Source of the DNA: Beijerinckiaceae bacterium
Lineage (GTDB): Bacteria; Pseudomonadota; Alphaproteobacteria; Rhizobiales; Beijerinckiaceae
Assembly (NCBI GenBank): GCA_947372795.1
Contig: CANBVC010000005.1
Location: forward strand, 1 to 34,613
DNA length: 34,613 nucleotides
Reading direction: 5' to 3'
In this document: positions 24,045 through 34,152 of the stretch, in pieces
Numbering within the stretch: position 1 is the first letter of the stretch
Layout: the number at the start of each line of letters is the position of its first letter
Notes under the pieces: generated by a model
What the model was told of the DNA's origin: nothing
Databases searched by the model: none
Seen by the model: only the letters and a program-made list of their open reading frames with translations
Made by a program: the position numbers and the translations under genes

Positions 24045-24084
24045 GGTTCCGTAGCTCAGCAGGATAGAGCAGCGGTTTCCTAAA
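24045..24084 (+). pseudogene. 5' half of host tRNA-Arg(CCU), cut in the anticodon loop (attL side)
   Basis: Acceptor strand GGTTCCG, D-arm GCTC..GAGC and anticodon stem GCGGT are intact, followed by the anticodon CCT and AAA. After position 24084 the sequence departs into AT-rich element DNA. The missing 3' half is at 34107-34152. Joining the two at the shared TTTCCTAAA core rebuilds a full tRNA in which acceptor GGTTCCG pairs with CGGAACC. This half alone cannot form a functional tRNA. Confidence 0.93.
24076..24084 (+). repeat. attL core
   Basis: TTTCCTAAA, identical to 34107-34115, covers the anticodon loop of the tRNA. The bases on either side differ between the ends: GCGG before and GCATG after at attL, TTGA before and CCGAAG after at attR. 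The crossover is therefore confined to about these nine bases. Confidence 0.85.
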
Positions 24085-24100
24085 GCATGATATTTTCTCT

Positions 24101-24120
24101 AAGTAATTGATTTATTTCAA
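24101..24120 (+). repeat. left-end copy of a 20-bp repeat shared with the right end
   Basis: AAGTAATTGATTTATTTCAA resembles AAGTTGTTGATTTATATCGA at 34077-34096 (15 of 20 identical), in direct orientation. It lies 16 bases inside the attL core; the right copy lies 10 bases outside the attR core on the element side. It is possibly an integrase or host-factor site. Confidence 0.5.
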
Positions 24121-24137
24121 CTTTTATGTGAGTCAAA

Positions 24138-24159
24138 AAGTATAGACAGGTATAGACTT
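24138..24159. promoter_or_regulatory. left-end inverted decamers, putative integrase/excisionase arm site
   Basis: AAGTATAGAC, two bases, then GTATAGACTT: an imperfect inverted pair with consensus AAGTMTAKAC. A related pair sits near the right end (34046-34070), so this is the kind of symmetrical end signal recognised by tyrosine integrases. It is followed by a run of T residues, so a weak terminator is an alternative reading. Confidence 0.5.
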
Positions 24160-24196
24160 TTTTTTGCAAATTTCTCATGGTATCTAGCTGCTCGCA

Positions 24197-24270
24197 CTCC
24201 GCGTAGCTCATCAGGATAGAGCGTAGGTTTCCTAAACCTGAGGTAGTAGGTTCGAGTCCTACCGCGGAGG
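24197..24270 (+). tRNA. complete tRNA-Arg(CCU) carried by the element
   Basis: A full cloverleaf can be drawn. Acceptor CTCCGCG pairs with CGCGGAG; the D-arm is GCTC..GAGC; the anticodon arm AGGT-TTCCTAA-ACCT carries CCT; the T-arm is GTAGG-TTCGAGT-CCTAC; the discriminator is G. CCA is not encoded, whereas the host gene has it. It differs strongly from the host gene in acceptor and T stem but keeps the 13 bases GGTTTCCTAAACC around the anticodon. It is in the same orientation as the broken host gene, 112 bases past the attL core, and could be read from the host tRNA promoter. It decodes AGG. Confidence 0.92.
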
Positions 24271-24490
24271 CGACCTCATTCATTGCTCAGTCTCGCTAGA
24301 CGGTTGCAGCGTGAAAATGACGCACCGGACGGGCTGAGATATTTCGGTGGAAATCTGAACAAGCCTGCAATTAGGTTCAGATTATGTATGCTCGTTGGTC
24401 GCGAAAGGGCGTTCGTTGCGGTTACTCAATGCCTTCTTCAAACAAAGCCCCGATGGGATTGCGACAAAGCGCCTGACCAGAACTTAAAAC

Positions 24491-24721
24491 TTGAAGATAC
24501 GCCGCTGGTCTGTACCGCAGCGACATCCGCTTGGCTTTAACGACGCTTCGAATCATAGTGGTCGCAGGACAGCAATCACTGGCTGGGCGAGAAAAATCTC
24601 TACGGTTGGCGGTTCGCTCAGGGACGTGCAGCTTCTGGCTGGGCACTCAGCGCTGGGGAGTACTCAGCGGTACATCGAGGGTTCAGAGGAATCGAAGCGG
24701 CGCGTGGTGGAGATGGTGTGA
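24491..24721 (+). pseudogene. 3' remnant of a small tyrosine recombinase gene
   Basis: From about 24545 the frame encodes NHSGRRTAITGWARKIS, LLAGHSALGSTQRYIEGSEE and RRVVEMV. This matches the C-terminal third of the recombinase at 27189-27761, including the HxxR, GHS and nucleophile Tyr motifs. Nothing upstream in any frame resembles the rest of that protein, so the 5' part is lost. It points towards the flagellin gene and is convergent with the intact paralogue on the other side. The two copies differ at roughly 30% of bases by eye. The 278 bases between the tRNA and this remnant (24271-24548) show no other supportable gene. Confidence 0.75.
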
Positions 24722-24812
24722 ATAAATTCCCCAGCCCATCTGTAGCCGATCATTTTATATTTCAAAATTAGGGCAAGATGCTTTTCAAAAATTCAAGCGA
24801 GATTACACCCTG

Positions 24813-26678
24813 CTACATTGATGCCTTGATCAACTGAAGTACCATCTGTGGCATTTGGTTCGCTTGAGCGAGCATTGCCATGGATGCCTTCTGGATGATT
24901 TGGCTTTTTGTTAAAGCAGTGATTGCTTCGGAGTGATCGGTGTCTTCAATGCGACTGCGTGATTGCTGAAGGTTCATAGACATGCTGGTGAGGTAATCGA
25001 CGGTGTAGTTCAGACTGCTGACGGCTGCTCCAAATCCTGCTCGTGCTTGGCTAACGGTCGTTAGGTAGCCGTCGATTTGATCCATCGTAGGATTGTCAGC
25101 CCAAAAAGTATAGGGACTGGAGTTTAAGGCAACTGAAACTTGTGATGACAAATAGTTAGCCACCGCTATATCGGGCTTGTGGTCGTTATTAAAGTCCGCA
25201 GTCACGACTGCGATGGGCTGGTTACCTGCAGCGAATATTGTTGGTGCCTTAAAAGTGCCGTCACCATTTCCTTGCAGAACAGTGACCCCTGCTGAAGCTG
25301 TATTAGCTGCAATAACATCAACTTTTCCATCATTGTTGAGATCTACAGTAGTTATTGCCTGAGCTTGAACCCCGATATTGTAGGCGACCGAATTTGTAAA
25401 AGAACCATCGCCATTCCCAACTAAAACTGAAATACTTCTGGAACCATAATTTGAAACCAAGATATCAGGGGTTCCATCACCATTTAGATCAGCTGTTGTA
25501 ATCCCGTAGGGCGACGAGCCAACAGTATAAGTCACTTGAGGTTTGTAAGTTCCATCTCCATTCGCAATTAAAACGGAAATGTTATTGTTAAACGCATTAG
25601 AGACGACTATATCATTTTTCCCGTTCTTGTTTAGGTCTGCGACTGCGGCAAAACATGGAGCTCCGCCTGTGGGGAGTGCAATTGACGGGTCAAAAGTCCC
25701 GTCCCCCTTATTTAAGGCGATAAAAATCGAGCTACCACTATTACCAATAATAAGATCCGGTTTTCCGTCACTATTTAAGTCAGAACTTGACAGTGATTGC
25801 GCTGAGCTTGGATACGAACTGAAGCGAGGTTGCTCGAAGGTGCCATCGCCATATCCAAAATAGCTTGAGATGCTACCATCTTGATTGGTGGTGATAATAT
25901 CCATTTTCTCATCTCCATTAAAATCACCTGCAACTACAGATGCCGGAGTTCTTGAAGAAGTAGAAAAAGTTTCGGTTTGGAATACCCCATCACCATTTCC
26001 AAGCAGAACAGAAATACTCCGTGATACGGTCTCGGCTGTAACGAGATCTGCATTTCCATCGCCATTGAAATCAGCGGTAGCAACAGTTTGATCGAAAAAT
26101 CCTGTTGTTGAAGTGGTTGGAGCTGAAAATGAGACTGTTTCAGAGTGAGGATTTATACCAATCGTTTGAAGCAAATTTGGTGTTTGAACCGACAGCTGAC
26201 TTTGAACAGATCTATCTCCATTGATATTCAAGTTGAAGTTTCTGGCGTCGTTGCTTCCACCACCGTCAAACAAACTGATTCCGTTCCATGCTGCGTTTGT
26301 CACAACATTGCTAATCTCAGCCTTGAGGCTTTTTATCTCAGATAGGATAGAAGTTTTATCTGCCGGATTGTTAGTGTCGTTATCATACTGAACACGCAAT
26401 TCACGCATTCGTTGAAAAAGACTGACCATACTGCCTGCCGCAGCATCAGCAGTCTGTATCAAAGCGATGCCATCATTAGCATTGCGTATAGCTTGTGCGA
26501 CTCCCCTGATCTGTGAAGTCAGTCGCGTGCTGATCGCCAGTCCTGCGGCATCGTCAGCGGCAGAGTTGATGCGCTTGCCCGTCGCCAACTGCTGCATGCC
26601 CCGTGCTGCTTCACGGGTTGAGACTTGATTGGCTGCTTGAGCAATAAGGGCGGCTGTGTTGGTGTTCAATGAGAGCAT
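24813..26678 (-). CDS. flagellin with a seven-repeat FG-GAP beta-propeller in its variable region
   Basis: A 621-residue protein. Residues 1-165 are a standard flagellin N-terminus (MLSLNTNTAALIAQ, QLATGKRINSAADDAAGLAI, IQTADAAAGSMVSLFQRMRE), and about 540-621 is a flagellin C-terminus (RSRIEDTDHSEAITALTKSQ). The D2/D3 region is replaced by seven repeats of about 45 residues, each with a Ca-binding DxNxDGxxD-type loop: DFNGDGNAD (203), DFNGDEKMD (252), DLNSDGKPD (300), DLNKNGKND (348), DLNGDGTPD (397), DLNNDGKVD (446) and DFNNDHKPD (495). Most are followed by a GNGDGxF motif. Seven FG-GAP/VCBS repeats imply an integrin-alpha-like seven-bladed propeller. The start is the ATG at 26678 with GGGGGC upstream; the frame extends 46 codons further but without flagellin sequence. 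No other flagellar gene is in the element. Confidence 0.92.
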   Translation of the reverse strand: MLSLNTNTAALIAQAANQVSTREAARGMQQLATGKRINSAADDAAGLAISTRLTSQIRGVAQAIRNANDGIALIQTADAAAGSMVSLFQRMRELRVQYDNDTNNPADKTSILSEIKSLKAEISNVVTNAAWNGISLFDGGGSNDARNFNLNINGDRSVQSQLSVQTPNLLQTIGINPHSETVSFSAPTTSTTGFFDQTVATADFNGDGNADLVTAETVSRSISVLLGNGDGVFQTETFSTSSRTPASVVAGDFNGDEKMDIITTNQDGSISSYFGYGDGTFEQPRFSSYPSSAQSLSSSDLNSDGKPDLIIGNSGSSIFIALNKGDGTFDPSIALPTGGAPCFAAVADLNKNGKNDIVVSNAFNNNISVLIANGDGTYKPQVTYTVGSSPYGITTADLNGDGTPDILVSNYGSRSISVLVGNGDGSFTNSVAYNIGVQAQAITTVDLNNDGKVDVIAANTASAGVTVLQGNGDGTFKAPTIFAAGNQPIAVVTADFNNDHKPDIAVANYLSSQVSVALNSSPYTFWADNPTMDQIDGYLTTVSQARAGFGAAVSSLNYTVDYLTSMSMNLQQSRSRIEDTDHSEAITALTKSQIIQKASMAMLAQANQMPQMVLQLIKASM

Positions 26679-26917
26679 AAAAATGCCCCCGTACCGATGG
26701 GCGCAGGAGTGCGTTCCCGCATAGCAGGCACTCCAATCGCCGAATGAGCGACTTGGCGCAGCACTCTTCCGAAACTCCACACAACAGCAACTCACGCCAA
26801 CAGCGTTGAGAGCCAACCGACCACTTCAAGTCGTCAGTAACGGTGGATTGGGATTGGTTTGTAGGCGCTTTAAGCTATTATTAAATTAGAGTTAACTTCG
26901 GGGGTGAATAGCTGTGA
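26679..26917. other. leader region of the flagellin gene, no gene
   Basis: About 240 bases between the flagellin start and the integrase remnant. It should contain the flagellin promoter. I looked for a sigma-54 site (GG-N10-GC); two TTGGC..GC candidates have 8-base instead of 10-base spacing, so none is claimed. The stretch just downstream of the recombinase remnant (about 26870-26900) is AT-rich. Confidence 0.5.
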
Positions 26918-27181
26918 TCACTGGACATCGTTAACTATGTGTATTGACGTTATGATCCAATCTACTGCCTTCATCTCCTTATTCCCCTTGAATTTCCCGC
27001 CCTTCGTCAATTCAGCTGCACTAGCAACATTGCTCGTATGACCGTAATGTTTTTCGAGCATAGCCACGCTGGTTCCCATATTGCGCGCGAGAATGAATTG
27101 ATGAACGCCCTTTTGTAGACGGAATGTCGCGCAGGTATGGCGCAGTGAACAGATGGGGCGCGGTACCCTTAGTTTCCTCAT
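26918..27181 (-). pseudogene. C-terminal remnant of a second type of tyrosine integrase
   Basis: The 87 codons contain RPICSLRHTCATFRLQKG, FILARNMGTS and MLEKHYGHTS, the final catalytic segment (R, H and nucleophile Tyr) of a phage-type integrase. The rest of the catalytic domain and the whole N-terminal part are missing. The frame is closed by a stop just before its first ATG, 7 bases after the stop of the recombinase at 27189-27761, so a deletion or insertion junction lies here. It cannot be active. Confidence 0.75.
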
Positions 27182-27188
27182 CTACCTC

Positions 27189-27761
27189 TCAACCCACCAC
27201 ACGTCTCATAGCGTCTTCTGAAACCTCAATATACCGCTGCGTCATTGCTAAGCTGCTGTGTCGAGCCAGACTCTGTACATCACGCATCGAACCACCGGCT
27301 GCTGAAATCTTCCTAGCCCAGCGAGTGATTGCTGTCCGACGCCCACTGTGACTGCTGCAACCGAAGAAGCCAAGTTCAAGATAGAGCTTGAAGAACCAGT
27401 TCACGACCGTCTGAGCACCCATTCCACGCCCGCCCTGAGCCTTCATCACAGGACCCTTCAGAGCCTCACCAGCAGCAAGGGCTTCCAGAGCCTGCCTCAG
27501 CCTCTTGCTCATGAAGACCACACCACCAGACCTCCCCTTTGACGCCCTGTCCTGAAGTCTAATCTCATCTGTCAGCGCACCCTGAGCGTCTGTCACCATC
27601 GCCCATTCCAACGCTGCGATCTCTTTTGCTCTGAGCCCTGCATCGACCGAGAGCAGGAACATCACCGTATTGCGTTGAGCCAGCCGACGCCCTGCAAGAT
27701 AGGACAACACCACCTTTTGCTGAGCTTCTGTCAAAATCTTTGCTTGTTTGCCGAGAGCCAT
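27189..27761 (-). CDS. small tyrosine recombinase lacking the N-terminal DNA-binding domain
   Basis: A 190-residue protein that is essentially only the catalytic domain of a tyrosine recombinase: AGLRAKEIAALEW (Arg44), Lys75 in RASKGRSGG, HSGRRTAITRWARK (His138, Arg141), His168 in LARHSSLAM and Tyr177 in TQRYIEVSE. All catalytic positions are present, so it could be active, but it lacks the SAM-like core-binding domain and would need a partner or an unusual mode of binding. It is convergent with its own paralogue fragment at 24491-24721 across the flagellin gene. GC content and codon use are closer to the host than the 28-34 kb part. Confidence 0.85.
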   Translation of the reverse strand: MALGKQAKILTEAQQKVVLSYLAGRRLAQRNTVMFLLSVDAGLRAKEIAALEWAMVTDAQGALTDEIRLQDRASKGRSGGVVFMSKRLRQALEALAAGEALKGPVMKAQGGRGMGAQTVVNWFFKLYLELGFFGCSSHSGRRTAITRWARKISAAGGSMRDVQSLARHSSLAMTQRYIEVSEDAMRRVVG

Positions 27762-28036
27762 CGCTTGCCCCTCAAAATGTTAGAATATTAGCGATGGAAG
27801 CACTTTCCTACTCGATGGCAACCAGACGCGAAAAATGCATTCCGGGATTGCCGTTGGAAATCAGCTGGTTGGTGGAAAGAGTTAGGAAATGGAACTTTCA
27901 TAATAACTTTTTTCACTCAGCCTACCTTATCCGCAACTGTCTCCACGGAGCGGCACTGTAGCTTGTCAATGATGCCGACCCGATCCCGAAACTTGACAGA
28001 TAGCCCAGCAGCTTGCGACTTTTCCGATCTTGATGA
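27762..28036. other. intergenic region between divergent genes
   Basis: About 275 bases separate the recombinase start from the palindrome before the next gene. A TTGACA hexamer at 27993-27998 points towards the gene at 28053, but I find no convincing -10 at the proper distance. No open frame here can be supported. Confidence 0.4.
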
Positions 28037-28052
28037 TTTTCACCGGTGAAAA
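28037..28052. promoter_or_regulatory. perfect 16-bp palindrome abutting a start codon
   Basis: TTTTCACCGGTGAAAA is a perfect inverted repeat ending at the base before the ATG at 28053, and includes that gene's GGTGA ribosome-binding sequence. A protein bound to the DNA, or a hairpin in the mRNA, would block initiation. It is a likely operator, probably for an element-encoded regulator. Confidence 0.6.
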
Positions 28053-29039
28053 ATGCCAAAGCGCAGCCCAACCCATAATTCATTGTCCTTGAGGCAAGGT
28101 GTCATCGATAAATATCTCAAGGAGATATCAGCTGGCTGGTATGAAACTACCAGAAGCATCCTTGCTGTCGCCAAGACATGCGCTGACGCCAATGCTCAAT
28201 TAGACGCGGAGGAAAAGCGGGAGCTACTGCATGAGCTGCCATTCGGCGCTTCCGTCTTTAGCAAGTTAGCCAAGATCGGCGCTGACCCCCGGCTAAAGAA
28301 ACAGGCTGTTGCCAAGCTCTTGCCGCCCAACTACTCGACCATTTATGAGGTGAGCCACCTGTCTGACACACGACTAGCAGATGCTGTGCGAGGAAAGGTT
28401 TTGACCCCCCAAGCTTCGCGGGCTCAAATCGTCTCCTTTGTACAGAACAAGAATGGGGGTGAGGAGCGGCAAGACACGGGCGCTGATTCACACAAAGCCC
28501 TTCTTGCCGAGATCCGCCTCCCTAAGGATATCAATAAGGCTCAACTCGCCAAAATCGTCAGGTGGCTTCAGAATCTCAATGAGGAAAGCCCGGGCTCGGT
28601 TGTGTTTGGATCAGACCTCCCAGCCTATGAACGGCTATTGAACCGGCATCAGACGCTATTGGGAAAGCGGGAAACGATGGTCCTGCGGAAAATGCGATCT
28701 TTAATTCGAAAGCGCATCTCAAGGATGAAAAACGACAAGACACGAGGGGACAAGTGGGGCTTCCTTCCCGATGAGACTGATCTCAATGTCTTAGATAACG
28801 AGTTACGGGAACGCATCGTACAGGTACTTTGTACACTCGGGTTCGAGAGCGACTTCGATCAACTTTACCAAGAGGCTGATAAAAGCGTTGACTACTCAGC
28901 GATCAAAGCTGCTGAAGAGAAGTTAGCCCAGCTGTTCCCATTCGAAATCACAAGTGTCGAGCCGTTGAAACTTGATCGCCCAAATCAGGCTGAATTGAAG
29001 GCATCACGCAAGCCAAAATTAGCGAAGCTCAAGGTGTAA
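28053..29039 (+). CDS. hypothetical element protein, DUF3102-like helical N-terminus
   Basis: A 328-residue protein. The first 130 residues (KYLKEISAGWYETTRSILAVAKTCADAN... ELLHELPFGASVFSKLAKIG) look like the helical domain of phage and plasmid proteins in the DUF3102 group, which often accompany replication or partition functions; that match is by eye and uncertain. The centre contains a very basic helix (KMRSLIRKRISRMKNDK, about 213-229), suggesting nucleic-acid binding. The C-terminus is Lys-rich. It is the largest plus-strand gene of the element and is preceded by the palindrome at 28037-28052. Confidence 0.7.
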   Translation: MPKRSPTHNSLSLRQGVIDKYLKEISAGWYETTRSILAVAKTCADANAQLDAEEKRELLHELPFGASVFSKLAKIGADPRLKKQAVAKLLPPNYSTIYEVSHLSDTRLADAVRGKVLTPQASRAQIVSFVQNKNGGEERQDTGADSHKALLAEIRLPKDINKAQLAKIVRWLQNLNEESPGSVVFGSDLPAYERLLNRHQTLLGKRETMVLRKMRSLIRKRISRMKNDKTRGDKWGFLPDETDLNVLDNELRERIVQVLCTLGFESDFDQLYQEADKSVDYSAIKAAEEKLAQLFPFEITSVEPLKLDRPNQAELKASRKPKLAKLKV

Positions 29040-29147
29040 AACTGACAATCTGCAAAGTCCACAAGCTAAGCAATAGAAATGCAAGGTTTGCAGTGCTTTA
29101 AGCAGCCATTCCAGCCCATAGTATCAAACGCACACACCATCCCCCAA

Positions 29148-30194
29148 TCAATATATTCCAACAACAAGACCACGATGGCTATCCACACCACCAATCTCAT
29201 TATGAGCAGACACCAACAGTCTTATGTCCGTCTTAGATAGCTGTTCATCAAACGTATGGTCATTCACCTCTTCAGCAAAACCTATAATTCCAGAACAACC
29301 ATTGACCTCTTCACCACTTTGAAAAACCACCTTCCCAGCACCCCAATTTCTTGCATATTGAAGGCGACTATTACTGCCAGTAAAGCAATACCGAGACATA
29401 CCAAGCAATCCATTATCTAATGTCTGCTTGATAGCTTTCCTCATTCCTTTCAGTTTAATGAGAGAGCATGTGCGCTGAATGTGAAGCTGCTTTTCTGTCA
29501 ATGACCAATGATTTGCGAACAGGTCCTTGAAATCACGATCACTCATTCCACCAGTATCAGCCAATGCATGGAAATGAACGAGAAAATACCGATCCACCAC
29601 CTTTCCTGGTGGCAAAGCAGCATCAATGAAACCAGATAGCGTATTCTGTTTCGTCGTCTTCTTCCCAGCCAGATGTGCAAATTGGAACATTTCATAATCA
29701 ATCAATTCAGCATGAACACCACCACGCAGCCAAATATCAGTTCCATGTTTGCGCCTAGCTGTACGCCCCACATTCGAAATATACCCCTTCATCTTTTCCA
29801 CGTCACTCTTGATCTGATTTACGCACTCATTGGAAATCTCACTTGATTCATAACTCACCGGAACCAGCGAATGTAGAACAGTCACCCATCTGAGCCTTTC
29901 CCTTGCCACAACCTCATCATTCCCAAAAGCTTTCTCACAATGACGCTTATAAGCCTGATACATATTCATTGATTTCCGATGCTTACAACGATCACAAAAA
30001 ACGCTACCACAAGCTGAGCCACCATTATCACATTCATTCATTGCAGCTTCATATTGCGTTCCTTTAATCGAAGAGAATATGCGAGATTTGTAGCTACTAT
30101 TTTTTGCAAATGTTTCCGATGAGCCCCTTACGGACTTTGCAGCCACCAAAACTCTTTCGCTTCCTGCTTCCTGTTTCTTCCTGAAGTCGCTCAT
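29148..30194 (-). CDS. putative HUH-type (rolling-circle) replication-initiation-like protein
   Basis: A 348-residue protein. A cysteine cluster CGSVFCDRC (Cys62, 67, 70, with Cys55) looks like a zinc-binding N-terminus. WVTVLHSLVP (about 103-112) resembles HUH motif 1. RYFLVHFHALADTGG (about 202-216) has the His-hydrophobic-His metal-binding motif 2, H207 and H209. A candidate catalytic tyrosine is Y280 in LQYARNWGAGK, but no standard YxxK/YxxxY motif 3 is evident, so the assignment is tentative. It is divergent from the small-gene operon at 30265. Codon 5 is AGG, the codon read by the element's tRNA. Confidence 0.5.
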   Translation of the reverse strand: MSDFRKKQEAGSERVLVAAKSVRGSSETFAKNSSYKSRIFSSIKGTQYEAAMNECDNGGSACGSVFCDRCKHRKSMNMYQAYKRHCEKAFGNDEVVARERLRWVTVLHSLVPVSYESSEISNECVNQIKSDVEKMKGYISNVGRTARRKHGTDIWLRGGVHAELIDYEMFQFAHLAGKKTTKQNTLSGFIDAALPPGKVVDRYFLVHFHALADTGGMSDRDFKDLFANHWSLTEKQLHIQRTCSLIKLKGMRKAIKQTLDNGLLGMSRYCFTGSNSRLQYARNWGAGKVVFQSGEEVNGCSGIIGFAEEVNDHTFDEQLSKTDIRLLVSAHNEIGGVDSHRGLVVGIY

Positions 30195-30264
30195 AGGTGC
30201 CTCTAATTTGTATTATAAATATATATATCCAACAAAGCTCACCTTTACCAGAACGGAGGGAAAA

Positions 30265-30444
30265 ATGCTTACAAAAGAAGAAGAACTTGAGCTGACAATT
30301 CGAGCTATCTTAGCAGAGCCAGACTCTGATATCTGCCGACACATACTCAATTTGAATGCAGAAATTGTACGCGACAAGAAACTGATGCAGCCAGCCACGG
30401 CAACTGAATTACAGCCTACATACAAAAAGAAAGGAAATTCATGA
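30265..30444 (+). CDS. small hypothetical protein, first of a three-gene operon
   Basis: A 59-residue acidic helical protein (MLTKEEELELTIRAILAEP...) without a recognised family. The ATG at 30265 has a strong AGGGA binding site; the frame extends 19 codons further upstream without one. Its TGA overlaps the next ATG (ATGA), indicating translational coupling to the ribbon-helix-helix gene. The upstream 70 bases are very AT-rich and separate it from the divergent HUH-like gene. Confidence 0.6.
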   Translation: MLTKEEELELTIRAILAEPDSDICRHILNLNAEIVRDKKLMQPATATELQPTYKKKGNS

Positions 30445-30650
30445 GATACAAGAAAGACAAGACCCACATCACCAGCTTCAGAATGTCTCAAGACCTACGA
30501 GAACAAGCTGAGAAATCTGCGCGATCATTGCGAATGAATTTCAGCGATTTTCTCCGCCAATCCATAATCAGAAATATTCATGTTTCCTACAATGTGGAAC
30601 AAGAGCTACTTAGACAAATTTCAGAACTAGCGAAAGGAAAATCCATATGA
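30441..30650 (+). CDS. ribbon-helix-helix (CopG/Arc-like) DNA-binding protein
   Basis: A 69-residue protein whose middle, THITSFRMSQDLREQAEKSARSLRMNFSDFLRQSI, fits a ribbon-helix-helix fold: a beta-strand with alternating polar residues, then two helices. Such proteins act as operator-binding repressors, antitoxins or relaxosome accessory proteins (MobC-like). It is coupled by ATGA to the genes on both sides. A second, diverged copy lies at 31566-31769. Confidence 0.7.
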   Translation: MRYKKDKTHITSFRMSQDLREQAEKSARSLRMNFSDFLRQSIIRNIHVSYNVEQELLRQISELAKGKSI

Positions 30651-30820
30651 GCGACAATGAAATTAAGACAATAATGTCCTTAGGTTCCAGTAAGATTTTC
30701 ACCGTAGACCCAAGCCATAAAGATATCATTTCCAAGGCTACAATTGATGCTCTTATCCGAGAAGCAAAACGGCATTTAGCAACGAAGAAAAAAGTTCATT
30801 TAGTCCTTGTCAAAGAATGA
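30647..30820 (+). CDS. small hypothetical protein, third of the operon
   Basis: A 57-residue protein (MSDNEIKTIMSLGSSKIF ... KKKVHLVLVKE) overlapping the ribbon-helix-helix gene by ATGA. It has no family I recognise. A homologue, about 60% identical by eye, lies at 31756-31932, again directly after a ribbon-helix-helix frame. Conservation of the pair across the duplication supports both as real proteins that work together. Confidence 0.65.
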   Translation: MSDNEIKTIMSLGSSKIFTVDPSHKDIISKATIDALIREAKRHLATKKKVHLVLVKE

Positions 30821-30849
30821 ATTTATTAGCCAGAAACAATACAATTATC

Positions 30850-30885
30850 TTGCCATTTAAGCGTCCTTACTGTATAATCTATACA
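30850..30885 (+). promoter_or_regulatory. promoter with a palindrome over its -10 box
   Basis: TTGCCA (30850-30855) and TATAAT (30873-30878) are separated by 17 bases. The -10 lies within TGTATA-ATC-TATACA (30871-30885), a perfect inverted repeat that would suit a dimeric repressor such as the ribbon-helix-helix protein. It faces the structured stretch at 30894-30946 and the gene at 31128. Confidence 0.6.
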
Positions 30886-30893
30886 ACATAAAA

Positions 30894-30946
30894 ATTGCAT
30901 TGGTTCCCTTATGGAATCTTTTTGATGCCAATCTTTTTGCAGCAAT
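30894..30946 (+). ncRNA. candidate structured leader or small RNA
   Basis: Nested complementarity: ATTGC (30894-30898) with GCAAT (30942-30946), ATTGG (30899-30903) with CCAAT (30928-30932), and TTCC (30904-30907) with GGAA (30913-30916). It starts about ten bases after the promoter at 30850-30878. The T-rich segments (five T residues twice) could serve as terminators or protein-binding sites. The stretch 30821-31127 has no coding gene. Confidence 0.35.
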
Positions 30947-31065
30947 AAAAGCCCAAAAGAAAGTGTCATTCTAAGGATGGAACGCTCAGTTCCTATCAAT
31001 ACAATTTCAAAGCAATTGCTTGTGATCCTGTGTCATCAAATCACAACGATATCAAGCAGAATGAA

Positions 31066-31102
31066 TCTGACTGAGTGTCAGATATCGAGAGAAATATTTC
31101 TC
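31066..31102. promoter_or_regulatory. inverted repeats upstream of the gene at 31128
   Basis: TCTGAC-N5-GTCAGA (31066-31082) is followed by the perfect 14-bp palindrome GAGAAATATTTCTC (31089-31102), 25 bases before the ATG. These are possible operator sites. No matching promoter is clear at this place, so transcription may come from the promoter at 30850. Confidence 0.4.
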
Positions 31103-31127
31103 CTATATTAAAGAAAGGGTTATCACT

Positions 31128-31484
31128 ATGGACTACATCACTAAAAAGAAAATCGAACTTGGTTGTGATCTTGAGAATATAACGACATTGGAAACACGTT
31201 TAAGAAGAATCTTGAAACCTGATGATTTAGAACTCTGGGTAGCTAAGGCATTTGCTGAAGATCACAAAATGTTCTTGGAAACTTTTTTCTTTAATGAATC
31301 TAATTATTGGACTCAAAATTTTACTTTATGGGGAGAGATTATGGAGATAGCATTGCATACAGGCTATAGCGTATATAACAAGAGTGGTCATCCGTGTAGT
31401 AATTCGTGGACAATTAAACCTATCCACTATAAGGAGTCCAAACAATCTCGTGTCAATGCGCGGAAACTTTTCATTGGCGAATAA
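31128..31484 (+). CDS. hypothetical element protein
   Basis: A 118-residue, AT-rich gene of unknown function. AAAGGG lies about 6 bases before the ATG. The protein is mixed alpha/beta, with aromatic-rich stretches (ETFFFNESNYWTQNFTLWGE) and a basic C-terminus (KESKQSRVNARKLF). There is no recognised domain and no membrane segment. It ends just before a strong terminator, so it is a separate transcription unit placed between the two copies of the ribbon-helix-helix cassette. Confidence 0.6.
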   Translation: MDYITKKKIELGCDLENITTLETRLRRILKPDDLELWVAKAFAEDHKMFLETFFFNESNYWTQNFTLWGEIMEIALHTGYSVYNKSGHPCSNSWTIKPIHYKESKQSRVNARKLFIGE

Positions 31485-31500
31485 CTGAACTTTTCCTAGT

Positions 31501-31537
31501 AGAATGGGTACCTGCAAAGTACCCATTCTTATTTATC
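31501..31537 (+). terminator. rho-independent terminator
   Basis: AGAATGGGTAC (31501-31511) and GTACCCATTCT (31519-31529) form a perfect 11-bp stem with a 7-base loop, followed by a T-rich tail (TATTTAT). It lies 17 bases after the stop of the gene at 31128-31484. Confidence 0.85.
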
Positions 31538-31565
31538 TAAATATCCACAACAGAAAGAGACATAA

Positions 31566-31769
31566 ATTACATACAAGAAAGACCTCACCATTCTCATCAC
31601 ATTCCGTCTATCACCAAATCTTAAAGATGATGCAGAGCATGAAGCGAAGAGATTGAATATCTCGTTCAGTGACTTCATCCGTCAATCCATACTCCGAAAC
31701 ATTCAATCCACAATCACTAATAAGTCTTCCACTTGCACATTCAACGAGCTTCAGAATGACCTCAGATAA
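31566..31769 (+). CDS. second ribbon-helix-helix protein, start codon ATT instead of ATG
   Basis: The frame encodes TYKKDLTILITFRLSPNL...NISFSDFIRQSILRNI, a clear homologue of the protein at 30441-30650. In alignment the codon in the place of that gene's ATG is ATT (31566-31568), with an in-frame TAA directly before it, and no other start precedes the conserved domain. It is either initiated at ATT, as a few bacterial genes are (infC, pcnB), or is a silenced copy. The frame is otherwise intact, with no stop or frameshift. It overlaps the next gene by 14 bases. Confidence 0.5.
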   Translation: MTYKKDLTILITFRLSPNLKDDAEHEAKRLNISFSDFIRQSILRNIQSTITNKSSTCTFNELQNDLR

Positions 31770-31932
31770 AGATATCAAGTCAGTTCTATCACTCGGTCAG
31801 AAGTCAGTCTTCTCCATCGATCCAGCACACAAAGATGCAATCTCCAAAACAACGCTTGAACTTATTAACAAAGAAGCCAAGCGTCATCTATCTGCAAGAA
31901 AGAAAGTCCACGTCATTCTCATCAAAGAATGA
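31756..31932 (+). CDS. second copy of the small coupled protein
   Basis: A 58-residue homologue of the protein at 30647-30820 (MTSDKDIKSVLSLG ... KEAKRHLSARKKVHVILIKE). I chose the ATG at 31756, where similarity begins; the frame is open further upstream to 31669 but there it is in the wrong register over the ribbon-helix-helix sequence. No strong binding site, so translation probably depends on coupling to the upstream frame. Confidence 0.6.
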   Translation: MTSDKDIKSVLSLGQKSVFSIDPAHKDAISKTTLELINKEAKRHLSARKKVHVILIKE

Positions 31933-31937
31933 CCTAT

Positions 31938-32144
31938 TCAATCCATCTCCTCGATCTCATCTTTGTTGATTTCAAATTTAAGATAATAATCATCTGAAGA
32001 GAGAACATCATAGAATTCCATTGATGGTCCCTCTTCTCGCCGCTTTATGAATTCCCGAAACCAGTTCAATTGCTCTTTGTTCCCATAACTGACGCACTGC
32101 CAGCCTTCAGATTTCCAAAATGCTTTCTTCTCAAGCTGCTGCAT
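31938..32144 (-). CDS. hypothetical small protein coupled to the upstream gene
   Basis: A 68-residue protein (MQQLEKKAFWKSEGWQCVSYG...) with a helical, acidic C-terminus (EINKDEIEEMD). Family unknown. The start at 32144 overlaps the preceding gene's end by 14 bases and has AAAGG about 9 bases upstream; a longer frame to 32219 exists but its added residues are a shadow of the upstream gene. It converges on the small gene ending at 31932, with 5 bases between stops. Confidence 0.55.
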   Translation of the reverse strand: MQQLEKKAFWKSEGWQCVSYGNKEQLNWFREFIKRREEGPSMEFYDVLSSDDYYLKFEINKDEIEEMD

Positions 32145-32538
32145 TGAGTTTTGCCTTTCTTCCCGCTCTTGCTTCTTCCATTCGTTCTTTTCGTGCATTG
32201 AAGACCTTCTTGATTGCATCTCTTTCCGTCGGTGATATCGAGCCAGACTTCAAAGCCTCTGCATAAGCAACAACCTGTTCGTTCGCATCGCTCAACGTCT
32301 TTGCAACACCTTCCAGACAATATGCTTCCATCGTTCCATACTTGATCCGCAAATAGACCTTGCCTTTCTCTGCATTGAACGAGAACACCTTCCCAGTTCG
32401 CCCCTTGCCTTTGCCTTCATTCTGAACAGCAACAATCAGCCCATCAGCAATCTTCTCCATGACGCCTTCGATTGTCATTGTGCGTGGTGTCAGACGAACG
32501 AACTCGTCCTGCACTGCTTCAAATTTCACGATTTTCAT
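32131..32538 (-). CDS. hypothetical element protein
   Basis: A 135-residue protein (MKIVKFEAVQDEFVRLTPRT...) with a beta-rich N-terminal part (GKVFSFNAEKGKVYLRIKYG) and a long basic C-terminal helix (VFNARKERMEEARAGRKAKLNAAA) typical of small nucleic-acid-binding proteins; no family recognised. The start at 32538 is favoured by AAAGGG 7 bases upstream. It is first of a two-gene minus-strand operon, with the palindrome at 32608-32621 in its promoter region. Confidence 0.6.
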   Translation of the reverse strand: MKIVKFEAVQDEFVRLTPRTMTIEGVMEKIADGLIVAVQNEGKGKGRTGKVFSFNAEKGKVYLRIKYGTMEAYCLEGVAKTLSDANEQVVAYAEALKSGSISPTERDAIKKVFNARKERMEEARAGRKAKLNAAA

Positions 32539-32607
32539 GAGTTTCCCTTTCAACATTCAAATCCACGATCAGACTGTTCCTGTCGTGTTATTGATAAGGG
32601 TAGAGGT

Positions 32608-32621
32608 CCACCTATAGGTGG
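32608..32621. promoter_or_regulatory. perfect 14-bp palindrome
   Basis: CCACCTATAGGTGG lies 70 bases upstream of the gene starting at 32538 on the minus strand, and 90 bases downstream of the integrase stop. It is a likely operator. The other intergenic feature is an AAGCCAC/GTGGCTT hairpin at about 32678-32701 that could end integrase transcription. Confidence 0.45.
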
Positions 32622-32710
32622 CAACCATGCTGGTGAAATGAATTTGTAGAATTTTCTGCAATGTCTGCGTTAGAAGAAGCCACGTGGGAGCAGGTGGCTT
32701 GCTACTGGTT

Positions 32711-33964
32711 CTACGCCCCACCATCTCCGAATGATTGGAGATTACGCGCCAACTCTCTCGTCATTGGCAAATACTTCAAATAAAACTGCGTCAACATATC
32801 AAGAGACGTTCCAGCGTTTCGAGCCAGGACTTCCATATTCACTGTTCCATCACTCAGCACCAGTCGCATACATAAAGCCGTGTGCCGCAAAGAGTACATA
32901 GAATGCGATAGGTTTGTGTATGGATCGACCTCCAGCCCACACTGTTTCAGCAGGTAAGCGAATTGCCTCATGATGATAGTTCTAGCGGTTGTGCGGTTTT
33001 TATATGCTGGTAAAAAGACAAAATCTGTAGGCTTTGGTTTTTGATCCAACCGCTCAACCATTCTCTTGTACAAATCTACAGCTGCTGGCATCGTGTTCGA
33101 AACACGATACCCCGTCTTTCCTTTTTTGACGGTCAGCAAAAGTCTCTGAGGGTTTGCTTCTATTGTCACGTCCTGATGCGTGAGCGCATAAAGCTCAGAT
33201 ACCGTTGGTCGTAAAAATGTGTGAGTAGTAAATATGATTATGTCACCAAGCTCACTCGTAATTGGGATTCCTCTAACAATGTGGCTCTCTGTCTCGATCT
33301 TTCGTGCGGTTTGGATAAGGTTCTTGTATTGATCTTCGTCTTTCGCGACGAGAGGATGAAACCTGAAGAATGGTCTTGGTGAGTGTTTTCCCTCATTCAG
33401 TTTTGGTGGTGCTGGTACTTGCGAGATAACTCCATCATACAGAGCTACCTTCATCACGTTTCTGAATGCTGATCGCAACGCGCCATGCACTGAGGGCGAA
33501 AGATTGGGATGGGTTTCCATGAGCTTGCGGGAGAAGTCGGCATAGTCTTTTACCGAAATTTGTCGCACATCCATCTGACCAAAAAATTGATCAAGCCCAT
33601 ACGTCTTGCTCTCTAGATTGTACTTTAGGTCCTTCGCGTATAACGGGTTTCGTGATCCTCGTTCGACATCTGATCGCGCCGTCTTCAATGCAATCTCTGC
33701 GAAGTGACGAAATTGCATGTCTCTCGGCACCACCTCCAGCTTCGACGTGCTTTGGATTTGTTGTGCGATTTCTTCTGCCACGATCCGCGCTTGGATTCGT
33801 GAGGTCTCTTTGGTGCTGCGGACGACGTACTTTGGTTTGCGTGATGGGTTTAGCACTCGCGCCATGTAGAATGGTGAAGCATGAATTTTGTAGATCGCCA
33901 CACCCCGTCGTATGGGAACTATGTCACCATCGAGGCTTTGCCTGCTCTTTTTGTCGCTTTCCAT
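32711..33964 (-). CDS. int: site-specific tyrosine integrase of the element
   Basis: A 417-residue phage-type integrase, the only complete one. A basic N-terminal arm-binding region (about 15-75) and a SAM-like core-binding domain (about 85-195) precede the catalytic domain: Arg252 in TFLRPTVSELYAL, a Lys in KKGKTGYRV, YSLRHT (Arg360, His361) and the nucleophile Tyr395 or Tyr398 in QFYLKYLP. The box often starting with His has Tyr, as in many phage integrases. It reads inward from the right end, its start 143 bases from the attR core, with the arm-like repeats in its promoter region, which fits autoregulation. GGAG lies 7 bases before the ATG. Codon 8 is AGG. Confidence 0.93.
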   Translation of the reverse strand: MESDKKSRQSLDGDIVPIRRGVAIYKIHASPFYMARVLNPSRKPKYVVRSTKETSRIQARIVAEEIAQQIQSTSKLEVVPRDMQFRHFAEIALKTARSDVERGSRNPLYAKDLKYNLESKTYGLDQFFGQMDVRQISVKDYADFSRKLMETHPNLSPSVHGALRSAFRNVMKVALYDGVISQVPAPPKLNEGKHSPRPFFRFHPLVAKDEDQYKNLIQTARKIETESHIVRGIPITSELGDIIIFTTHTFLRPTVSELYALTHQDVTIEANPQRLLLTVKKGKTGYRVSNTMPAAVDLYKRMVERLDQKPKPTDFVFLPAYKNRTTARTIIMRQFAYLLKQCGLEVDPYTNLSHSMYSLRHTALCMRLVLSDGTVNMEVLARNAGTSLDMLTQFYLKYLPMTRELARNLQSFGDGGA

Positions 33965-34045
33965 CCTCTGGCTCCAAACTGGACGAAGTATTTGCTGCGC
34001 CCAAGATCGAGAATCGTATTGGTCAGCCTACATTTTTCTCAAAAA

Positions 34046-34070
34046 AAGTCTAGACAGATGGTATAGACTT
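34046..34070. promoter_or_regulatory. right-end inverted decamers, putative arm site
   Basis: AAGTCTAGAC, five bases, then GTATAGACTT: 9 of 10 positions match in inverted orientation. It is the counterpart of 24138-24159 and lies upstream of the integrase start, so bound integrase could repress its own gene. Confidence 0.5.
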
Positions 34071-34076
34071 GCATCC

Positions 34077-34096
34077 AAGTTGTTGATTTATATCGA
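34077..34096 (+). repeat. right-end copy of the 20-bp shared repeat
   Basis: AAGTTGTTGATTTATATCGA, direct-orientation partner of 24101-24120. Its GTTGTTGATTT segment (34079-34089) occurs again 20 bases on at 34099-34109, running into the attR core, so there are two tandem sites next to the crossover. Confidence 0.5.
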
Positions 34097-34106
34097 AGGT
34101 TGTTGA

Positions 34107-34115
34107 TTTCCTAAA
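34107..34115 (+). repeat. attR core
   Basis: TTTCCTAAA, identical to the attL core at 24076-24084; here it is followed by the genuine tRNA sequence CCGAAGGTC. Confidence 0.85.
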
Positions 34116-34152
34116 CCGAAGGTCACAGGTTCGAATCCTGTCGGAACCGCCA
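34107..34152 (+). pseudogene. 3' half of host tRNA-Arg(CCU) with CCA (attR side)
   Basis: It begins in the anticodon loop, continues with the stem ACCGA, variable loop, T-arm ACAGG-TTCGAAT-CCTGT, acceptor CGGAACC, discriminator G and encoded CCA (34150-34152). The sequence to its left is element DNA that does not restore the anticodon stem or acceptor, so no functional tRNA is made here. It completes the 5' half at 24045-24084. Confidence 0.93.

Follow-up and report, generated by a model that had tools for sequence, protein, structure and literature searches.

The outer domains of flagellins are diverse and the role of most of them is unclear, and a clean swap of these domains for a well-understood binding fold would offer a testable case. 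Here we ask whether a gene of a Beijerinckiaceae bacterium encodes such a swap, how the gene came to its present place and what its product might do. The gene lies in a stretch of 34,613 nucleotides (the window; assembly GCA_947372795.1, contig CANBVC010000005.1), and the assembly comprises 3.16 Mb in 330 contigs and is 90% complete.

Domain architecture of the propeller flagellin

A preliminary description of the window had placed at positions 24813-26678 a flagellin carrying an FG-GAP propeller. These coordinates proved exact, with the gene on the minus strand (ATG at 26678, stop codon at 24815-24813) and its 621 codons free of an interrupting stop (Table 1). The reported flagellin D0/D1 termini were recovered by Pfam at residues 5-140 (Flagellin_N) and 532-617 (Flagellin_C), along with seven stretches of FG-GAP_3 (6.5e-62) and five of FG-GAP (9.2e-35), all above the gathering cut-offs. 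Flagellin and FG-GAP were the only Pfam families in the chain, and no enzyme family was matched. Among the best 25 of 28 NCBIfam rows, 24 were flagellin-related models, all below their whole-protein cut-offs, as expected with a foreign middle in the chain; the XAC2610 family also gave a short match (residues 492-514) that passes its cut-off and is taken as a probable by-product of the FG-GAP motif.

The description had also counted exactly seven repeats, and this number was found both for the FG-GAP_3 stretches and for the calcium-loop motifs (DxNx[DN]xxxD), which are spaced 48-49 residues apart. The acidic or Asn ligand positions were kept in all seven loops, and the full motif, with G at position 6, in five of them, the other two carrying E and H. 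A loose form of the pattern matched eight times in the protein, the extra match lying in D1 (residue 99), and 10,000 composition shuffles gave a mean of 0.07 matches and a maximum of 3. Since pairwise identity between blades was 27-45%, the repeats represent neither a recent tandem duplication nor an assembly stutter.

Table 1. Features of the propeller flagellin gene and of the element that carries it (window positions)
Feature	Position	Strand	Basis or remark
5' half of split host tRNA-Arg(CCT)	24045..24084	plus	ends with core TTTCCTAAA at 24076-24084
Low-GC inserted element carrying the flagellin gene	24085..34106	no strand	GC drop; tRNA restored on joining the flanks
Intact tRNA-Arg(CCT) inside the element	24197..24271	plus	third core copy at 24228
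Integrase remnant	24506..24709	plus	resembles the 190-aa integrase (64.7% identity, 68 aa)
Propeller flagellin gene	24813..26678	minus	621 aa; frame and Pfam matches
Flagellin D1/D0 C-terminal helices, residues 527-621	24816..25100	minus	Flagellin_C 6.3e-20
Predicted seven-bladed FG-GAP propeller, residues 181-526	25101..26138	minus	Pfam, two AlphaFold models, fold matches
Calcium-loop motif blade 7, residues 495-503	25170..25196	minus	motif scan
Calcium-loop motif blade 6, residues 446-454	25317..25343	minus	motif scan
Calcium-loop motif blade 5, residues 397-405	25464..25490	minus	motif scan
Calcium-loop motif blade 4, residues 348-356	25611..25637	minus	motif scan
Calcium-loop motif blade 3, residues 300-308	25755..25781	minus	motif scan
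Calcium-loop motif blade 2, residues 252-260	25899..25925	minus	motif scan
Calcium-loop motif blade 1, residues 203-211	26046..26072	minus	motif scan
D1 hairpin/linker region, residues 141-180	26139..26258	minus	low model confidence, pLDDT <50 for 131-176
Flagellin D0/D1 N-terminal helices, residues 1-140	26259..26678	minus	Flagellin_N 8e-35; helices in both models
C-terminal fragment, second integrase type	26918..27181	minus	matches the 417-aa integrase at 47% (38 columns, E 2.3e-6)
Tyrosine integrase, 190 aa	27189..27761	minus	PF00589 1.1e-11; phrog_216 1.8e-32
Tyrosine integrase, 417 aa, adjoining the right core	32711..33964	minus	PF00589 1e-4 (below curated cut-off); phrog_1 2.2e-13
Right core TTTCCTAAA (34107-34115) and tRNA-Arg(CCT) 3' half (34116-34152)	34107..34152	plus	tRNA join

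Predicted structure of the propeller

AlphaFold2 was run twice, with an alignment of 12 FG-GAP stretches and three flagellins (A4) and with one of 14 FG-GAP stretches (A2); the two models are not independent, since most FG-GAP rows were common to both alignments. The mean pLDDT was 78.7 for A4 and 76.3 for A2 (pTM 0.64 and 0.63, respectively). Structure prediction had been proposed as a check on the closed propeller, and both models gave a closed seven-bladed ring at residues 181-526, with agreeing strand patterns. Within residues 181-520 every ten-residue block had a pLDDT of at least 87, except for one block of 81 in the A4 model. Confidence in D0/D1 was moderate to low (ten-residue blocks of 36-86 in A4 and 29-82 in A2), and values below 50 were found in both models at residues 131-176 and at the outermost D0 ends. 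In the A2 model, DSSP assigned 28 strands of at least three residues. One spans 188-191, blades 1-6 have four strands apiece and blade 7 has three, suggesting that the N-terminal strand 188-191 is the fourth strand of blade 7. The A4 propeller lacked just one of these strands, the fourth in blade 1, and two extra strands (148-151 and 159-162) appeared with low confidence at the expected site of the D1 hairpin. In every blade of both models the calcium-loop motif sits between strands 1 and 2.

Fold comparison of model residues 181-523 placed the integrin alphaIIb propeller first, at Z 34.0 with 320 residues aligned to 2.4 A, and integrins made up 39 of the best 50 rows. Aldos-2-ulose dehydratase (Z 33.1) was tied with integrin alphaIIb by the aligner's own rule, and the virginiamycin B lyase and LGI1 propellers followed at Z 31.5-32.0. 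Because this list was filled by propeller matches, the absence of other folds from it is uninformative on the flagellin part. Foldseek returned KICSTOR, CRTAC1 and BBSome chains as its first propeller matches, with no integrin among the best 50 rows, and also found flagellar filaments, at low TM-scores (about 0.2-0.4). The description of the propeller as integrin-alpha-like was thus borne out by the top fold match, but not by the tie with an enzyme propeller or by the Foldseek ranking. With integrins tied in this way and other propellers close, the fold alone does not imply adhesion; the models show an FG-GAP-type propeller with seven blades, and its integrin likeness concerns the fold. The features that the models share with the integrin alpha propeller are the seven FG-GAP blades, the loop between the first two strands and closure by an N-terminal strand. 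In contrast to an integrin alpha subunit, the propeller flagellin has no leg, transmembrane or cytoplasmic parts, and the integrin rows were 14-17% identical to its propeller. It also carries calcium-loop motifs in all seven blades, unlike integrins, which have fewer than seven.

Fit of the two halves and divergence of the flagellin ends

As judged from the sequence and from matches to flagellin structures, a complete D1 with its hairpin was readable to about residue 175 and the C-terminal helices resumed at about 527, which puts the propeller at the position that D2/D3 occupy in other flagellins. The models accordingly show the predicted replacement of D2/D3 (at 181-526) by one closed seven-bladed propeller with a calcium-loop motif in every blade, as had been claimed for the outer domain. 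The GC content of the propeller (0.435) was below that of the N-terminal (0.502) and C-terminal (0.491) parts, as was its third-position GC (0.338, against 0.479 and 0.547), which fits a domain swap between sources. Both the sequence and the predicted fold give good support to a propeller flagellin.

To compare the flagellin ends, we used 26 of the 42 frames that had both ends, 16 having been dropped by a coverage filter. Of 63 columns at least 90% conserved in the other 25 flagellins, the propeller flagellin kept 52; its 11 departures were the most of any of the 26 (the next had 7), and most were mild, e.g. I/L, S/A, E/D and R/K. It also had the longest terminal branch of the 26, and its place in the tree was with flagellins of the same genus (node support 0.81). 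The number of departures may reflect relaxed selection, and the gene is a fast-diverging extra copy beside another flagellin, a point that the preliminary description had missed.

The gene is carried by an element inserted in a tRNA gene

At about 24.1 kb the GC content in 1-kb windows drops from 0.60-0.67 to 0.36-0.53. At this place an element of ~10 kb splits the host tRNA-Arg(CCT) in the anticodon loop: the joined flanks form a 77-base tRNA-Arg(CCT) with a fully paired acceptor stem, and each junction region alone gives no tRNA. The locus thus has a split tRNA with a flanking repeat, an integrase and a deviant composition, as required of an integrative element. The flagellin gene is cargo of this element and lies outside the flagellar cluster, which had also gone unnoticed; it arrived with the element in a host that has flagellar genes and another flagellin.

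The element carries an intact tRNA with the same anticodon; together with the split host tRNA and the three TTTCCTAAA cores, this marks tRNA-Arg(CCT) as a hotspot and suggests stacked insertions. The flagellin gene sits between inward-pointing copies of one integrase type, the left one a remnant. The fragment of the second integrase type had no Pfam or PHROGs match of its own. The 417-aa integrase matched seven plasmid records, which come from Rhizobium, Asticcacaulis, Novosphingobium, Azospirillum and Pararhizobium and make an alphaproteobacterial host probable; the three plasmid matches that reach 85% cover carry an integrase annotation.

Element ORFs to the right of the flagellin gene were scanned with Pfam (eight ORFs) and PHROGs (nine). 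Among these, no TldR/TnpB-like or phage structural gene was recognised, a result that a divergent regulator could escape, and PHROGs gave for the non-integrase ORFs a single one with weak CopG/Arc-like matches. Apart from the integrase ORFs, five ORFs of the element had no Pfam or PADLOC match. A 328-aa protein (28053-29039, plus strand) had no match in Pfam, PHROGs or PADLOC, and a 348-aa protein (29148-30194, minus strand) had none in these or in plasmids; the latter has an N-terminal cysteine cluster and an HFHxxxD stretch and is possibly a replication protein, which is a guess. To the left of the tRNA lie ordinary chromosomal genes, e.g. for a release factor and a PEP-utilising enzyme. A 66-aa ORF of the right flank had a 59% match in another genome (G016), there without the tRNA or the left-flank genes.

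Flagellar genes of the host

In one 20-kb stretch the host genome encodes FlhA, FlhB, FliR, FliP, FlgD, FlgA and an FlgF/G-type rod protein, along with a sigma-70-family factor, an SRP54-type GTPase and a ParA-type ATPase. A second flagellin lies on another contig (C166), whose end truncates it. A scan of the host genome for FliD_N gave no match, which says little, since this model also misses Caulobacter. Scoring against sigma-28 and sigma-54 consensus sequences gave no convincing promoter upstream of the propeller flagellin; its best sigma-28 score was 10/16, and the other flagellin genes scanned scored 8-14.

Search for relatives

Across 61 genomes, which comprise this one, 36 others of its genus and 24 from the order, only this gene spanned flagellin ends and propeller. 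The same held for 398 genomes of the phylum (E 1e-25), among the matches listed and with at most three candidates scored per genome. A tail query of the last blades and the C-terminus (residues 440-621), for which this genome was the sole positive control, matched no gene but this one among 385 genomes of the class. It found nothing in 349 genomes of the phylum, nor in 372 and 376 genomes from the phyla to which a Planctomycetota and an Acidobacteriaceae record belong, three sets without a positive control. The 398- and 349-genome surveys sample the same phylum and overlap, and the surveys of 349-398 genomes scored at most three to nine candidates per genome. Of the 15 genomes behind the studied loci, eight were matched at E 1e-30, each by flagellin or FG-GAP stretches. 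The window and 94 loci, 29 of these from genome contigs, gave 4,193 frames of at least 60 aa. The N end of flagellin was matched by 65 of them, its C end by 58 and the propeller by 40; the propeller flagellin alone matched an end and the propeller together. Matches were also returned from 234 plasmid records and 12 phage records, none with a place covering 80% of the protein, and a pattern search of viral contigs matched seven stretches, none of which encodes a relative.

Several candidates were rejected. An Acidobacteriaceae locus (L094) with an FG-GAP alignment reaching residue 562 had no flagellin end. Of other alignments past a domain border, those in G048 and G153 concerned proteins that combined flagellin with Flagellin_IN and had no FG-GAP family, and the flagellin frames of G120, G196, G265 and G362 had no strict FG-GAP motif. 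Short flagellin pieces in two genomes of the genus (L066 and L067) were genes cut by contig ends and not a fragment family. The proposed search for Flagellin_N, FG-GAP/VCBS and Flagellin_C in one protein therefore yielded no second fusion; with a limited number of genomes sampled and few candidates scored in each, rarity is indicated, not proved.

Discussion

We propose, with a probability of about 0.5, that the gene encodes an accessory flagellin, acquired with the element, which co-assembles into the filament and displays calcium-loaded binding propellers on it. The best same-genus match of the propeller (38% over residues 172-522) lies in a giant protein (L070:4047-10229; 2060 aa) built of cadherin, SdrD_B and RTX repeats besides FG-GAP, in which no flagellin family was matched. 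The make-up of this protein appears adhesin-like, and the match was counted in favour of a binding propeller. The integrase remnants around the gene and the lack of a relative with the same architecture in the surveys were counted against an accessory filament protein.

The flagellar export channel is narrow and a folded propeller should not pass it, which makes calcium-dependent folding an attractive idea. In the proposed sequence of events, the propeller flagellin would pass the channel as an unfolded chain, the low calcium inside the cell keeping the propeller unfolded until its exit, and it would fold outside, where calcium is high. D0/D1 would then mediate co-assembly with the host flagellin, giving a filament with many propellers that might bind a surface, a polysaccharide or another cell. 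A bolder version, in which the element turns the host flagellum into a calcium-switched, integrin-like adhesive organelle by co-polymerisation after integration, with calcium-dependent folding permitting export, is speculative and rather unlikely to hold as a whole. If true, a propeller flagellin would present the filament as a display scaffold, raise the question of how a large propeller passes the export channel, tie a change of the flagellar surface to a mobile element and offer a natural model for filament display under calcium control.

The element could instead remodel the flagellum, with the propeller a bulky coat and not an adhesin. The main gain would then be escape from phages that bind flagella or from the immune system, or a change in swimming. 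The element that bears the flagellin does have integrases and occupies a tRNA site, and a precedent exists in a prophage flagellin that replaces that of the host and alters motility and immune recognition (Walker et al. 2026, PMC13418256). Both are flagellins of mobile elements with divergent outer domains, but FliCP of the prophage has an adjacent TldR and phage genes (PMC13418256), whereas neither was recognised among the ORFs scanned here, and the outer domain is a predicted seven-bladed propeller. Moreover, the ligand positions kept in the seven calcium loops suggest a folded, functional module. We regard remodelling without adhesion as possible, though unlikely.

It is improbable that the gene is decaying cargo, unexpressed or dying in a junkyard at the tRNA site. 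Integrase remnants on both sides, the longest branch and the most departures from conserved D0/D1 positions, a promoter not recognisable by consensus scoring and the gene's absence from the 36 other genomes of the genus that were searched would all agree with decay, but the frame is open over its whole length, most of its D0/D1 changes are mild and all seven loops are intact at the acidic or Asn positions.

Flagellin homologues act at the cell surface in Sphingomonas sp. A1. The PDB entries 3k8v and 3k8w, named 'Flagellin homolog', match residues 25-170 of the propeller flagellin, which could accordingly be a flagellin-derived protein located at the cell surface or secreted via the flagellar channel and not a filament subunit; both D0 ends are present, however, and resemble those of filament flagellins, making this very improbable. 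A chimera in which the assembly joined a flagellin gene to a separate FG-GAP gene, to which the fragmentation of the source assembly into 330 contigs and the GC of the propeller (0.435, against about 0.50 for D0/D1) might point, is scarcely credible in view of the single open frame with both junctions at natural D1 borders, of flanks that restore a tRNA and of all seven FG-GAP_3 matches of the host genome falling within this gene, so that no donor gene is seen.

Comparison with known flagellins

Sialidase is itself a propeller fold. Eckhard et al. (2017) reported 61 domain types in flagellin hypervariable regions, the ten most frequent including vWFA and sialidase but not FG-GAP (PMC5595980). 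The preliminary description knew of no propeller flagellin, and its novelty holds in so far as FG-GAP lies outside that top ten and a literature search, which leaves most subscription papers outside its coverage, gave no paper on an FG-GAP-propeller flagellin by title or start of abstract among the matches listed; it is reduced by the 61 domain types, sialidase included, already reported. The available parts of PMC7018530 (which we take to be by Hu and Reeves) and of the filament review PMC8306008 do not mention a propeller domain in flagellins.

Flagellinolysins and other domain-insert flagellins likewise have a foreign folded domain between intact flagellin ends. Display on the filament has been shown for flagellinolysins (PMC5595980), whereas for the propeller flagellin it is our expectation, and flagellinolysin carries an HExxH metallopeptidase, whereas the propeller flagellin has FG-GAP, no HExxH and no peptidase family. 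With inserted-domain flagellins (PMC5595980) and prophage flagellins (PMC13418256) already published, the propeller flagellin would extend a known theme.

Large middle regions without a Pfam match were seen in two further flagellins, one of 1109 aa from Ktedonobacteria (L015:202-3528, plus strand), with a middle of about 880 aa, and another giant flagellin, of 932 aa, from the same genus as the propeller flagellin (G021; L077:1662-4457, minus strand), with a middle of ~700 aa.
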